Assembly (NCBI RefSeq): GCF_001544375.1
Contig: NZ_BCQJ01000003.1
Span: 186,001-250,000, forward strand
Length of the DNA: 64,000 bases
Source: Enterococcus canis NBRC 100695
Lineage (GTDB): Bacteria > Bacillota > Bacilli > Lactobacillales > Enterococcaceae
Reading direction: 5' to 3'
The notes beneath the pieces are model-generated. The model searched no databases, had not been told where the DNA came from, and worked only from the letters and a program-made list of their open reading frames with translations. Positions within the stretch are counted from its first letter, which is position 1, and each line of letters begins with the position of its first letter. The translations under genes and the position numbers were made by a program. This document shows, piece after piece, positions 1,849-42,092 of the stretch.

Positions 1849-3837
1849 TCAGAGAATTTCAGCCGTTCCAATTTCTTCTTGCGGTTTGATTATTCCCGTC
1901 TTTACTAAGGTCAAACCACTGATTTTTTCATCATTCGTAAATACTACGACTACATCCGTAGCTTTGCCAGCCGCTTTCACCGCCTTCAAATCCATTTCTG
2001 CCAATAATGTTTGCGGCGTAACTTCGTCTCCCTCACGAACTTTGATATCAAAAGGTGCGCCTTTTAATTTGACTGTATCTAAGCCCATATGGACCAGGAC
2101 TTCTGCTCCAGTTTTCGTTAAGATGCCGATTGCATGTTTTGTTTCAAAAATACTTGTAACTTTCCCAGCTACCGGTGCATAGATTTGACCTGATGTTGGT
2201 CGAACCGCAAAGCCATCCCCCATCATCTTTTTAGAAAAGACGGGATCGGCTACCTCACCAATGGCAATCACATCCCCAGCCGCTGGTGCAAAAATTCTTT
2301 CTGTTTCCGTCGCATAGACAGTGGTTGTAGCAGACCCAGCCGCCACATTTTGAATACTCGCACCTGCTGTTGCAAATTCTTCAGCGTACAGATTACCAGT
2401 AACTTCATCAACTGGATCGATTTTATTAAAGATACCCTGCCGGCGGAACACCACGGTCAAGCCGAATGGAACCACAATCGCAATTCCCATGGCGATGCCA
2501 AAAGCCAGCCAACCGCCACCTTCTGTACCATTGATGGCCAAAATACCTGGCAAGCCGCCAACGCCAATAGCATTCGCCCGCACGCCCATTAAATTATTGA
2601 ACATACCTGCCAAACCTGAACCAATCATAGCTGCGACAAATGGATAAACATATTTCAAATTAATCCCAAACATCGCTGGTTCAGTAACACCCAAGTAACA
2701 AGAAATAGTTGCTGGAATCGAAACTTGTTCTTCTTTTTCGTTGCCACGATGTAAGAAAATCACCGCTAAGACGGCCGAACCTTGCGCGATATTAGACAAG
2801 GCAATCATCGGCCACAGATTAGTTGAGCCAAAGTCTGCAATCAACTGCATATCAATAGCATTAGTCATGTGGTGCAGACCTGTAATAACCAATGGCGCAT
2901 AGAGTCCCCCAAAGATAAAACTGAACAACCAGCTGACTGATGAAGTCAAACCAGCATTTACAATGGCCGAAATGCCACTACCTAGCCACCAACCAAATGG
3001 TCCTAAAATAATATGGGCAGCTAAAATTGTTGGTAACAAGGACAGTAATGGTACAAAAATCATGGACACTGCTTCTGGAATTCGTTTGCGCAACCAGCGT
3101 TCTAAATAGGCCAGCATAAACCCAGCTAACATTGCTGGAATCACCTGAGCTTGATACCCAATTTTATCAATCTGTGCAAAACCAAAATCCCAGAACGGAA
3201 TATCAGCAGCCGCTGTACCACCCACGGCATAAGCATTCAGCAGTTGCGGTGAAACTAGCGTGATCCCTAAAATAATCCCCAGTATTTGGGTCGTCCCCAT
3301 CTTACGTGTCACACTCCAGGTGATACCCACCGGTAAGAAGTGGAAAATTGCTTCACCTGGTAGCCAGAGGAAATCATTGACCCCGTTTCAAAATACCGAA
3401 TTTGAAACAATCGTACCATTACCAAAGTCAATTCCTTCTAGTACATTGCGAAAACCTAAAATCAACCCGCCGACAATAATTGCTGGAATAATCGGTGTAA
3501 AAATTTCTGCTAAGACCCCAATAGCACGTTGGACGGGATTTTGATTTTGTTTAGCCAGTGACTTGCTCTGCTCCTTAGAAACACCTTCAACTCCTGATAT
3601 TTCTGTAAATTCATTGTAAAAAGTTGAAACGTCATTGCCAATAATAACTTGAAATTGGCCGGCATTGGTAAACATCCCCTTTACGCTAGGAATGTCCTCA
3701 ATTGCTTTTTCGTCGGCCTTCTGCGGATCGTTTAAAACAAATCTCATTCTTGTAGCACAGTGTGTAACTGCTGCGATATTTTCCTTACCACCAATATCCT
3801 TCAGCAACTGCTCGGCATCATGCTGATACTTACCCAT
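1849..3837 (-). pseudogene. treB: Trehalose PTS permease EIIBCA with in-frame stop
   Basis: Together the two open segments form one continuous reading frame of 662 sense codons interrupted by a single TGA at 3390-3388 (codon 150). Before the stop: an EIIB domain with the phosphorylatable Cys27 (THCATRMRF) and the start of EIIC (IPAIIVGGLILGFRNVLEG). After it: NGVNDFLWLPGEAIFHFLP, the remaining EIIC helices and a C-terminal glucose-type EIIA domain with active-site His (VLVHMGLD). TreB homologues have Trp-Asn at this place, so TGG to TGA is the simplest explanation; there is no frame change. Trehalose specificity is inferred from the EIIC sequence and the divergent treP-pgmB-treR genes. No well-placed start lies just after the stop. 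Readthrough or a sequencing error would restore a normal-length protein; otherwise trehalose uptake by this gene is lost. Confidence 0.88.
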
Positions 3838-3858
3838 TCTGTCCCCTCCTAATTATTA

Positions 3859-3874
3859 ACTTGTATATATAAGT
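3859..3874. promoter_or_regulatory. TreR operator in the treB leader
   Basis: The near-palindrome ACTTGTATATATAAGT lies just downstream of the treB promoter and upstream of its ribosome site. A closely similar 16-mer (13 of 16 positions) sits at 4137-4152 in front of treP. Its TTGTATATA core is like that of GntR-family TreR operators. Binding by the adjacent treR product is inference. Confidence 0.68.
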
Positions 3875-3889
3875 TGTTGAGCTACTTTT

Positions 3890-3918
3890 ATAATAACGCT
3901 TACAAAATGAATATGCAA
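3890..3918 (-). promoter_or_regulatory. treB promoter
   Basis: Minus-strand -35 TTGCAT (3918-3913) and -10 TATTAT (3895-3890) with a 17-nt spacer. A cre-like site overlaps the -10 region and the TreR-like box lies 16 nt downstream of the -10. Confidence 0.68.
3891..3904 (-). promoter_or_regulatory. cre site (CcpA) at the treB promoter
   Basis: The minus-strand sequence TGTAAGCGTTATTA matches the cre consensus at 13 of 14 positions and overlaps the treB -10 box. This position fits catabolite repression by CcpA-HPr(Ser-P). Confidence 0.65.
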
Positions 3919-4136: not shown

Positions 4137-4152
4137 ACATGTATAGACAAGT
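4137..4152. promoter_or_regulatory. TreR operator at treP
   Basis: ACATGTATAGACAAGT lies between the -10 box and the AAGGAGGGAG ribosome site of treP and overlaps the expected transcription start. Read on the minus strand it begins ACTTGTCTATACA, matching the 3859-3874 box in its half-sites. Confidence 0.66.
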
Positions 4153-4166
4153 TAAGGAGGGAGCAT

Positions 4167-6797
4167 ATGAAACACGCAACGATTCAAGTAATAGAGCAAG
4201 CCTTGCACTTTACAGGACCAGATCAAAAAGCCATTTCTTTTGACGATACCAACATTAAAGTAATTCAACAGTTATGCGACGAGCAACAGCTTATTGGGGG
4301 CACGATTGAGTCCAGCCCTATCAATGTAACCACGACTAACGGACAGCAAGATCTCGCTCATTGGCTCAGCGAACAATTGAATCTGCCTTTCGCTTACCAA
4401 GCCGAGGATCTCGCTCAGGCCCAAGCAGATTTCCCATGGATCCTTCGTTACAGTGGCTACACACCAGGTAAAGATGAGTACTCCGTTGAATCTTTGTTAA
4501 CTATTGGTAACGGCTTTCTGGGGTTACGAGGGACTACTCCTGAAATGGAAATTGCTGATGAAAATTATCCGGCGACTTATTTGGCCAGTTTATACGATCA
4601 AGCTGCTTCGAAAGTTGGCGATCGCACGATTTACAATGAGGACTTTGTCAACGCGCCCAATTTACAAAAAATTTATTTACTGATTGATAATGAAAAAATT
4701 GACATCGCTAATAATCATATACTGTCTTTTGAACGGGAATTAGATTTACGAACAGGACTCTTTCAATCAAAAGCCTTAATTGAAACACGGCAAGGTAAGC
4801 AGGTCTTGATTACCTCTAAAAAAATCGTCAGCATGGCCGCAAAACATTACTACAGTATCAGTTATCAAGTCACTCCTGTGAATTTTTCCGGAACACTCAC
4901 ATTAGTAGCAGAGGCCGATGGCGCGGTTTACAACTATAATGTTGCTCGCTATCGCAGCTTAACACAACGACATTTGACGATTGATAAATTGGCAGCAAAT
5001 GGCGCTAACGCTTTGCTGGTTGCTAAAACAAAACAGTCACAAATCACTATTAGCCAGCATTCAACCTTGCATAGTGAGCTAGATTTAACTAATTTAGTCA
5101 TTGAACAAACTGACGAAAAAATCCAGCAAAAGTTGACCTTTTCAGCTAGTGAAGGAACCGCCTATACCTTAGAAAAAACTGTGGCTGTCTACCAAGCGCG
5201 ACCTCACGAAAAGCTACCAGACGTGGGACTATCCCTTGCGAGTCTCCCTAACTTCAATGCCTTATATAGCGAATCAAAAAAAGCCTGGCGAAAGCTTTGG
5301 CGGGAAGCCGGTTTGAAAGTTGAAGGCGACCTCATGTCACAAAAATTACTGAATTTGCATACGTACCATTTGCTATGTTCGGCGTCGCCTAATGGCAACC
5401 AAGGACTAGATGCCTCGGTCACGGCCCGAGGTCTACACGGCGAGGCTTACCGCGGACATATCTTTTGGGACGAGCTCTTCATTCTGCCTTTTTATATTCT
5501 TCATTTCCCAGAAACCGCTAAACAGCTGTTACTTTATCGTTATCATCGCCTCGCGGCCGCTAAAAAAGCGGCTAGCGAAGTCGGTTATGAAGGAGCCATG
5601 TTCCCTTGGCAATCAGGCTTAGATGGTTCTGAAGAGTCACAAGAGTTACATCTAAACCCCATTAGTGGGGAGTGGAAAGAAGATCATAGTCGCCGCCAAC
5701 GCCATGTTTCCTTAGCGATAGCCTATAATGTTTGGCAATATTGGCATAACACCCGTGATCGCGAATTTATGATTGATTATGGACTGGAAATAATGTTAGA
5801 GATTGCTGCTTTTTGGCGGAGCATTGCCCAGTGGGATCCTCAAACAGAGCGCTACATCATTGAAGGCGTCATGGGACCTGACGAATTTCATGAAGGCTAT
5901 CCTCATAGCAAAACTGGTGGTTTAAAAAACAATGCTTACACGAATATGATGGTGGTGTGGTTATTTGAAGAAGTAGAAAAATTGCAGCATTATTTTCCTC
6001 AAGAATTACCACTCATTACGAATCAAATTGGTCTAACTTCCGAAAAGTTAGCCGAAATTGGCAAAATTCGGCAAAGATTACAACTAGAAATAGACCCCGC
6101 AGGCATCATTGCTCAATTTGAAGGTTATTTCCAGCTGCAAGAATTAGACTGGGATTACTACCGCGAAAAATACGGCAATGTCTACCGCATGGACCGCATT
6201 TTAAATGCAGAAGGTCGTTCAGCCGATGAGTATCAGGTAGCCAAACAAGCAGACAGTTTGATGATCTTTTACAACCTAGCTAAAAATCAAGTAGATAGAA
6301 TTCTACATGATTTGGGCTATAAGCTACCTGACAATTATGTTGAAAAAAACCTGCACTACTATCTAGCTCGTACCTCTCATGGCTCAACGCTTTCTCGAGT
6401 AGTTCATGCACAGTTAGCGGCAATGGTAAAAGAGGACGCCTTAGCTTGGCAACTATACCAAGAAGCTTTGACCTCTGATTACCAAGACATTCAAGGTGGC
6501 ACAACCGCTGAAGGAATTCACGCCGGCGTGATGGCGGCAACGCTATTTATCCCATTGACCACCTTTGCTGGGATGGATATTCGCGAACAGCAACTGCACT
6601 TCCAGCCGCGGATGCCCCAAGCTTGGCAAAGTCTCTCTTATAGAATGACTTTCCAAGGTATCCGCTACAAGGTTTCTGTAAGCCATGATGCCCTTGTAAT
6701 CAGCCCAAGTCACCCGACAACTATATTAGTAAATCAAACTGCTTACTCCTTAAATGCTGGAGAAGCAACCACGATTTTCTATAAGGAGGTACTATGA
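4167..6797 (+). CDS. treP: GH65 trehalose-6-phosphate phosphorylase
   Basis: An 876-residue glycoside hydrolase family 65 phosphorylase. The GH65 fold starts near residue 88 (LRYSGYTPGKDEYSVESLL then TIGNGFLGLRG). The barrel carries the catalytic acid motif GPDEFHE at residues 570-576, with Glu573 as general acid, and LARTSHGSTLS near residue 730. It should split trehalose 6-phosphate with inorganic phosphate into glucose 6-phosphate and beta-glucose 1-phosphate in the cytoplasm. Next-door beta-phosphoglucomutase, TreR and a trehalose PTS gene favour this substrate over maltose or kojibiose. The stop overlaps pgmB by 4 nt. The roughly 88-residue N-terminal extension is not part of the usual ~770-residue enzyme and I do not recognise it. 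Substrate is inferred from context. Confidence 0.85.
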   Translation: MKHATIQVIEQALHFTGPDQKAISFDDTNIKVIQQLCDEQQLIGGTIESSPINVTTTNGQQDLAHWLSEQLNLPFAYQAEDLAQAQADFPWILRYSGYTPGKDEYSVESLLTIGNGFLGLRGTTPEMEIADENYPATYLASLYDQAASKVGDRTIYNEDFVNAPNLQKIYLLIDNEKIDIANNHILSFERELDLRTGLFQSKALIETRQGKQVLITSKKIVSMAAKHYYSISYQVTPVNFSGTLTLVAEADGAVYNYNVARYRSLTQRHLTIDKLAANGANALLVAKTKQSQITISQHSTLHSELDLTNLVIEQTDEKIQQKLTFSASEGTAYTLEKTVAVYQARPHEKLPDVGLSLASLPNFNALYSESKKAWRKLWREAGLKVEGDLMSQKLLNLHTYHLLCSASPNGNQGLDASVTARGLHGEAYRGHIFWDELFILPFYILHFPETAKQLLLYRYHRLAAAKKAASEVGYEGAMFPWQSGLDGSEESQELHLNPISGEWKEDHSRRQRHVSLAIAYNVWQYWHNTRDREFMIDYGLEIMLEIAAFWRSIAQWDPQTERYIIEGVMGPDEFHEGYPHSKTGGLKNNAYTNMMVVWLFEEVEKLQHYFPQELPLITNQIGLTSEKLAEIGKIRQRLQLEIDPAGIIAQFEGYFQLQELDWDYYREKYGNVYRMDRILNAEGRSADEYQVAKQADSLMIFYNLAKNQVDRILHDLGYKLPDNYVEKNLHYYLARTSHGSTLSRVVHAQLAAMVKEDALAWQLYQEALTSDYQDIQGGTTAEGIHAGVMAATLFIPLTTFAGMDIREQQLHFQPRMPQAWQSLSYRMTFQGIRYKVSVSHDALVISPSHPTTILVNQTAYSLNAGEATTIFYKEVL

Positions 6798-7441
6798 AGA
6801 AAGGCTTTATTTTCGACCTAGATGGCGTGTTAACTGACACGGCAGAATTCCACTACGAAGCATGGTCTTGGCTAGCTGAAAGCGTAGGAATCACCATCGA
6901 TCGTATGTTTAACGAAGAATTAAAAGGAGTTAGTCGCGAAGAGTCTTTGGAAAAAATTCTGCACCTTGGTGGAAAGGAAGACCTCAATGAACGTGAGAAA
7001 CGTCAGCTAGCTGCCCAAAAGAATACTCGCTATGTTGCTTTATTAGAAAATTTGACACCAGATTCACTATTACCCGGTGTGGCTGACTTTTTACAAGCAG
7101 CAAGAAATCGCCAGATCCCTTGTGTATTAGCATCCGCTTCAAAGAATGCCCACTACATCTTAAATAAGCTCGCAATTGATGAATATTTTATTGGCATTGT
7201 CGATCCCAGTACCTTATCAAAAGGTAAGCCACATCCAGAAATTTTCTTAAAAGCTGTCGAGCTATTAGGGCTTGCGCCCGAAGAAACGATTGGCTTTGAA
7301 GATGCTATCGCAGGAATCGCAGGCTTAAAAGCGGCCGGAATTTATGCAGTAGGAATTATATCTAACGAAAAGCTGCCAAGAGCTGATTTATGTGTCCCTA
7401 GCTTTTCCAAACTAGATATTGACGAATTACTGAAAAAATAG
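6794..7441 (+). CDS. pgmB: Beta-phosphoglucomutase
   Basis: A 215-residue HAD-superfamily phosphomutase. Motif I is FDLDGVLTD with nucleophile Asp8 and acid/base Asp10. Motif II is LASASKN, the Lys of motif III lies in SKGKPHPEIF, and motif IV is GFEDAIAGI. The helical cap contains ELKGVSREESLEKIL. It converts beta-glucose 1-phosphate from the phosphorylase into glucose 6-phosphate for glycolysis. Start ATG overlaps the treP stop by 4 nt, with AAGGAGG just upstream, indicating translational coupling. Length and motifs are normal. Confidence 0.92.
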   Translation: MKKGFIFDLDGVLTDTAEFHYEAWSWLAESVGITIDRMFNEELKGVSREESLEKILHLGGKEDLNEREKRQLAAQKNTRYVALLENLTPDSLLPGVADFLQAARNRQIPCVLASASKNAHYILNKLAIDEYFIGIVDPSTLSKGKPHPEIFLKAVELLGLAPEETIGFEDAIAGIAGLKAAGIYAVGIISNEKLPRADLCVPSFSKLDIDELLKK

Positions 7442-7476: not shown

Positions 7477-8193
7477 ATGAATAAGTTCAAAGAGATCTTT
7501 CTAGACTTAGAACAGAAGATTCTTTCAAAAGAATACCCACCTCAAACTATGCTACCTAGCGAAAATCAGCTAATCAAAATGTATGGCGTCTCCAGAGAAA
7601 CTATTCGGAAAGCCTTGAACCTGTTACGAAATGCTGGTTATATCCAAAAGCAGCAGGGTAAAGGGTCCATTGTACTAGATTTGAATCGCTTTGATTTTCC
7701 TATTTCCGGTTTAACAAGCTTTAAAGAACTACAACAAGCCCAGCATATTTCTAATGAAACTAAGGTAGTAGAAATTAGGAAAATCGCCGTTTCACCAACT
7801 CTCCATAAAATTACGGATTGGCCAGTAGCCTCAGAAGCTTGGAAGCTAGTTCGCCAACGAAAAATCAACGGTGAGGTCGTGATTTTAGACAAAGATTACC
7901 TCGATGCTAAGATTATTCCGACTTTACCTGAAAAAAAAGCCGAAGATTCAATCTATGAGTATTTTGAACAAGATTTAGGATTGGAGATTGCCTACGCTCA
8001 AAAGGAGATTACGGTCGACCCTGTTAATAAGGAGTTACGGGATCTAATGGATTTACCCGCGGATGATACCCATGTGGTCACCGTTCGCAGCCTAGTCTAT
8101 CTTGACGATACTCGCTGCTTTGAATACACTGAGTCTATTCATCGCCTGGACAAATTTCGTTTCGTTGATTTTGCGCGTCGTAGAAAAGCATAA
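7477..8193 (+). CDS. treR: GntR-family trehalose operon regulator
   Basis: 238 residues: an N-terminal winged helix of the GntR/HutC type (residues about 5-70, containing YGVSRETIRKALNLL) followed by a UTRA effector domain (about 85-235). TreR proteins bind trehalose 6-phosphate through UTRA and release the operators when it accumulates. It starts 35 nt after pgmB behind GGAGG and is the third gene of the run, ended by a terminator. The two 16-bp boxes between treB and treP are its probable targets. Assignment as TreR rests on context plus family. Confidence 0.85.
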   Translation: MNKFKEIFLDLEQKILSKEYPPQTMLPSENQLIKMYGVSRETIRKALNLLRNAGYIQKQQGKGSIVLDLNRFDFPISGLTSFKELQQAQHISNETKVVEIRKIAVSPTLHKITDWPVASEAWKLVRQRKINGEVVILDKDYLDAKIIPTLPEKKAEDSIYEYFEQDLGLEIAYAQKEITVDPVNKELRDLMDLPADDTHVVTVRSLVYLDDTRCFEYTESIHRLDKFRFVDFARRRKA

Positions 8194-41767: not shown

Positions 41768-42092
41768 CTTGATTCACTACTTTCTAATTTCTTTTTAGGT
41801 ACTAAAAAAGCTTCCGTCCCTCTACTACTTCTAGTAAAAGGACGGAAGCATAAATTCCGTGTTACCACCTTTTTTCGTCATTTCTTCGCAAAAATGACCT
41901 CAGCCAGTACTTGAACACTTCGCATACTGTGGTGCTGTAACGGGCACTCCCGTGATAGGCTTACATATTTGTTCACCTATTCTGCTCAAAGACCATCTTC
42001 CATCTCGATTCCATTGCCCTTTCTCAGCTAAACGGGGCTCTCTTAAAATTTCTTCGACATGTACTCTTCTTTTCAAAGCTTTCTGTATTGCT
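41768..42092 (-). ncRNA. T-box leader of metNIQ
   Basis: About 320-nt leader on the minus strand. The T-box sequence AAGGTGGTAACACGG is at 41871-41857 and is followed by TTATGCTTCCGTCC. The terminator GCTTCCGTCC/GGACGGAAGC plus T6 (41849-41804) shares its first arm with the antiterminator, the classic switch. AGAGAG and GCTGAGAAAGGG near 42040 fit Stem I. A candidate specifier AUG lies at 41966-41964 (AAATATGTAAG), consistent with Met-tRNA control of the downstream transporter. The specifier assignment is inference, the T-box itself is clear. Confidence 0.9.
41804..41849 (-). terminator. Regulated terminator of the T-box
   Basis: Ten-base-pair stem (41849-41840 with 41819-41810) and a T6 tail, competing with the antiterminator formed by the T-box sequence. 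Confidence 0.88.

Follow-up and report, generated by a model that had tools for sequence, protein, structure and literature searches.

Does the treB gene of Enterococcus canis NBRC 100695, which is interrupted by a TGA codon in its own reading frame, represent a lost trehalose importer, a gene that is still expressed through the stop, or an intact gene misread in the assembly? The window used to approach this question is a stretch of 64,000 nucleotides, to which all coordinates refer unless otherwise stated. The features that describe the interrupted gene are the following.

1849-3837, minus strand: treB, encoding the trehalose-specific PTS EIIBCA, 662 codons with one in-frame TGA (reading frame, profile and domain matches).
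3388-3390, minus strand: the in-frame TGA, codon 150, which is TGG (Trp) in all orthologs read (ortholog comparison).
3388-3837, minus strand: the open reading frame actually encoded, 149 amino acids, comprising EIIB and the first part of EIIC (list of open reading frames and Pfam).
1849-3330, minus strand: the open frame beyond the stop, which starts at the first GTG, 493 amino acids, comprising most of EIIC and EIIA (list of open reading frames).

The TGA lies at positions 3390-3388 of the minus strand, in frame as codon 150, and the frame is the same on either side of it, resulting in a continuous treB of 662 codons with a single stop. When read through this stop, the product scores 699 bits against the TIGR01992 profile (PTS-IIBC-Tre, cut-off 592) and contains, in this order, the Pfam domains EIIB (residues 9-42), EIIC (starting at residue 111) and a complete EIIA. 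The uninterrupted coding sequence expected of a TIGR01992 member is lacking, due to the TGA at codon 150. A preliminary description of this DNA had proposed the in-frame TGA with an unchanged frame on each side and, as its outcome, a 149-residue EIIB fragment or low-level readthrough; the TGA is borne out by direct reading of the sequence and the fragment, which comprises EIIB and the start of EIIC, by the open reading frames. No Shine-Dalgarno sequence was seen in the bases preceding the GTG at 3330, so efficient re-initiation at this codon is unlikely.

Comparison with relatives indicates what was lost at codon 150. When each species was represented by one genome, 61 treB loci were obtained, in which the codon was compared where readable, and TGG, encoding Trp, occupies the corresponding column in all 42 loci checked that share at least 45% identity. 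The closest ortholog, treB of Enterococcus songbeiensis (86% identity), has TGG at this codon. Within the Enterococcaceae, where treB is present in 102 of 105 genomes, Trp was found at codon 150 in each of the nearest genomes checked and in all of the ten genomes that were flagged for other treB stops and examined, and an internal TGA was flagged in just one of the 102 copies, that of the E. canis window. The search of the genus returned this genome alone, and the species is represented by one genome. Since all the orthologs read carry Trp, treB has a premature stop that is absent from its orthologs, as is characteristic of nonsense pseudogenes. As this comparison shows, a single base change has converted a conserved Trp codon, located in the early part of the EIIC membrane domain, to TGA, and the presence of this stop where the checked relatives have Trp indicates that the importer has most likely been recently lost or nearly lost.

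The age of the change was addressed by a three-way comparison of the 511 codons past the stop among the window, E. songbeiensis and a further relative (G042). Private amino acids amount to 33 of 511 in the window and to 21 and 30 in the two relatives, with no clear excess, and no further stop, frameshift or indel was seen in the approximately 511-512 codons past codon 150. Under neutral divergence, the chance of a stop-free downstream part would be about 0.08 at 5% divergence and about 0.007 at 10%. Synonymous sites are saturated between the treB of the window and those of its relatives, so dS is unusable for dating. Because the downstream part is free of stops and private changes are not in clear excess, the stop appears to be either recent in terms of the time scale of these species or weak in its effect. 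Two further claims of the preliminary description thus hold: that homologs have Trp where a single TGG-to-TGA change would explain the stop, as seen in every ortholog read, and that this change is probably recent, in agreement with the lack of other stops or indels and of a clear excess of private changes.

The mutated base is part of a repeat:

3385-3408, no strand: perfect 8-bp inverted repeat, GTTTCAAA / TTTGAAAC, with an 8-nt spacer and the mutated base in one arm (fold and repeat analysis).

The arms span 3385-3392 (GTTTCAAA) and 3401-3408 (TTTGAAAC), and the stop base completes the pairing (8/8), while a Trp codon at the same place would leave one pair mismatched. Applied to other Trp codons, the same kind of change creates a comparable repeat at a rate of about 0.1% with spacers of up to 10 nt and of about 0.4% with spacers of up to 30 nt. 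Template-switch mutation at quasipalindromes is described in PMC7202029. The new base of treB matches the partner arm, as such an event would produce, in a pattern that was spotted post hoc, and the stop base may have been copied from the nearby inverted repeat by template switch. An ordinary G-to-A transition, which belongs to the commonest class of mutations in bacteria, explains the treB stop equally well.

Taken together, it is highly probable that treB is a recent nonsense pseudogene and that the trehalose PTS of this strain has been inactivated. Translation would end past EIIB and the start of EIIC, and treB would provide neither a working sugar channel nor EIIA; as the predicted product lacks EIIA entirely and EIIC for the most part, loss of TreB function is the most likely outcome. 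Trehalose import by the strain would then be poor or absent unless another PTS substitutes. No second trehalose importer, that is, an EIIBC over the TIGR01992 cut-off of 592 bits, was found in the genome (the next best match reaches 274 bits). Trehalose might enter through other PTSs of the glucose family that the genome encodes.

The rest of the locus was examined for its integrity, and comprises the following features.

3856-3875, no strand: putative TreR operator adjoining treB, also placed near 3860-3873, and conserved in both E. songbeiensis and G042 (comparison).
3891-3905, minus strand: cre-like site upstream of treB, with one mismatch, chance matches of this kind being common (motif match).
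4137-4155, no strand: putative second TreR operator, adjoining treP, conserved with E. songbeiensis and G042 (comparison).
4167-6797, plus strand: treP, encoding a GH65 enzyme, probable trehalose-6-phosphate phosphorylase, intact (profile, Pfam and solved relatives).
6794-7441, plus strand: pgmB, encoding beta-phosphoglucomutase, intact (TIGR01990, 249 bits, cut-off 189).
7477-8193, plus strand: treR, encoding the trehalose operon repressor, intact (TIGR02404, 317 bits, cut-off 212).

The open frames of treP, pgmB and treR, which match their families, and the conservation of the operators support the initial impression that all of them are intact, and the genes for processing and sensing trehalose-6-phosphate would thus remain beside a dead importer. 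Among solved structures, the best match to the GH65 protein is 9lb6, deposited as a trehalose-6-phosphate hydrolase; from the presence of treR and treB alongside, the protein is likely a trehalose-6-phosphate phosphorylase. A separate trehalose-6-phosphate hydrolase was discarded, as the best GH13 match (689 bits) falls under the cut-off of 799. The stop frequencies of treP across the family count terminal stops too. Polar effects of the treB stop on other genes are not expected, because a terminator-like hairpin (1806-1771) follows treB.

Some additional observations concern the same stretch. About 90 N-terminal residues of the GH65 protein (window 4167-4436) precede GH65N and are unmatched in the best solved relatives. 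Furthermore, treP and pgmB are 59-66% identical to the copies of E. songbeiensis and G042, yet treB and treR reach 83-87%, and this uneven identity across window 4167-7441 could reflect uneven divergence or a mosaic origin of the locus. Farther along the window, a T-box leader (Rfam RF00230) is found at 41835-42085 on the minus strand.

From the perspective of its decoding, the stop could also be leaky. The tRNA-Trp of this genome (G000:C1:564-637, 74 nt) has a CCA anticodon and a D-stem, GUUU/GAAC, that places A at position 24 in a U11-A24 pair, according to its sequence and predicted fold, and in E. coli it is the G24A (Hirsh) change that enables tRNA-Trp to read UGA (PMC13092985). Such a tRNA might read the UGA of treB as Trp often enough for useful TreB, in which case the codon would be tolerated as leaky, TreB would be low and possibly bet-hedged, and the gene would be attenuated rather than dead. 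In-frame stops of prokaryotes can indeed be maintained by selection (PMC7918605), and relaxed constraint is absent from the codons past the stop of treB, but recency accounts equally for this lack of decay. Moreover, the same 74-nt tRNA-Trp is found, identical, in 11 other Enterococcaceae genomes, with copies of about 97% identity in many more, so A24 characterises the family rather than being adapted to the treB stop. The absence of a stop at codon 150 in any relative gives no sign of selection for it, and TGA serves as a normal stop in the window, where it ends 8 of the 35 open reading frames of at least 200 codons, with A following in three of them, as at codon 150 of treB. Useful expression of TreB through a leaky stop is thus unlikely; low-level UGA readthrough in treB is plausible from the tRNA sequence, and a small amount of full-length TreB may arise by misreading of the UGA. 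As regards the tRNA itself, a 4-bp anticodon stem was considered and rejected, since our own reading of the fold gives five pairs with G27-U43 on top. No UCA tRNA or suppressor is present among the tRNAs recovered, a set that is probably incomplete due to contig breaks, and a weak extra tRNA match considered as a suppressor was unconfirmed by ARAGORN.

A sequencing or assembly error, masking a Trp codon in a treB that is in reality intact, would agree with the intact and conserved remainder of the locus, and involves only one altered base in a draft of 45 contigs. Nevertheless, this base sits within a 370-kb contig of a 99.98% complete assembly, and single-base errors of this kind are uncommon in assembled drafts. 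Of the 32 PTS_EIIC matches in the genome, 31 are open, with an internal stop in treB only, and among the 119 ABC-domain matches stops are confined to one fragmentary match, which makes an assembly-wide error problem unlikely. Overall, an error at this position is a quite improbable explanation.

Programmed recoding is scarcely credible: UGA doubles as the selenocysteine codon, and A-to-I editing of its A, located in a predicted hairpin of the mRNA, would restore a Trp codon, but a search of the genome for tRNA-Sec (RF01852) gave no match over the cut-off and the orthologs carry Trp, not Cys. TadA, in turn, depends for editing on a hairpin loop that resembles an anticodon loop and carries UACG or, in S. 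pyogenes, UAMG (PMC12255301, PMC11472039). The A of treB lies instead within UGAA (context UUUUGAAAC) and in a stem. A genetic code with UGA as Trp was rejected given the CCA anticodon of tRNA-Trp and the use of TGA as a terminator in the window, and these two features, together with the result for tRNA-Sec, indicate that TGA is an ordinary stop here.

The treB stop is therefore best regarded, as a nonsense pseudogene, as an ordinary strain-level loss of an accessory sugar transporter and not as a new mechanism. It predicts a trehalose-poor phenotype despite a gene content that suggests a full trehalose pathway and leaves general understanding unchanged, while adding one more case of recurrent treB loss and a modest but clear instance of a nonsense mutation located at a near-palindrome.

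Several known systems can be compared with this locus. In gene content and divergent layout, it resembles the route formed by a trehalose PTS EIIBCA and TrePP (treB / treP-pgmB / treR), but differs from intact systems of this type in its interrupted treB. In E. faecalis, treB is a trehalose PTS gene whose expression was altered in a (p)ppGpp/CodY study (PMC6656871). Within the Enterococcaceae, a single in-frame TAA is found in otherwise intact treB genes of E. villorum NBRC 100699 (codon 63, in window numbering, as for the following) and of a metagenome-assembled genome of Ca. Enterococcus avicola (codon 103); in contrast to the TGA of the window, these stops are TAA and lie at other positions, where the window has Gln. 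Two further genomes carry a single in-frame TAA at codon 6 (G040) and at codon 610 (G007), and loss of treB appears, from these sequences, to be recurrent in the family. Finally, laboratory Salmonella enterica carries treB as a pseudogene, whose repair was selected in LB (PMC5933015). Both cases share a treB defect in one strain background, which in S. enterica single mutations repair where uptake of trehalose is advantageous. Unlike in the window, however, the S. enterica gene was repaired by a 1-nt insertion at nucleotide 541, implying a frameshift, and its TreB, from a different lineage, is described as IIB/IIC (EIIBC) (PMC5933015).
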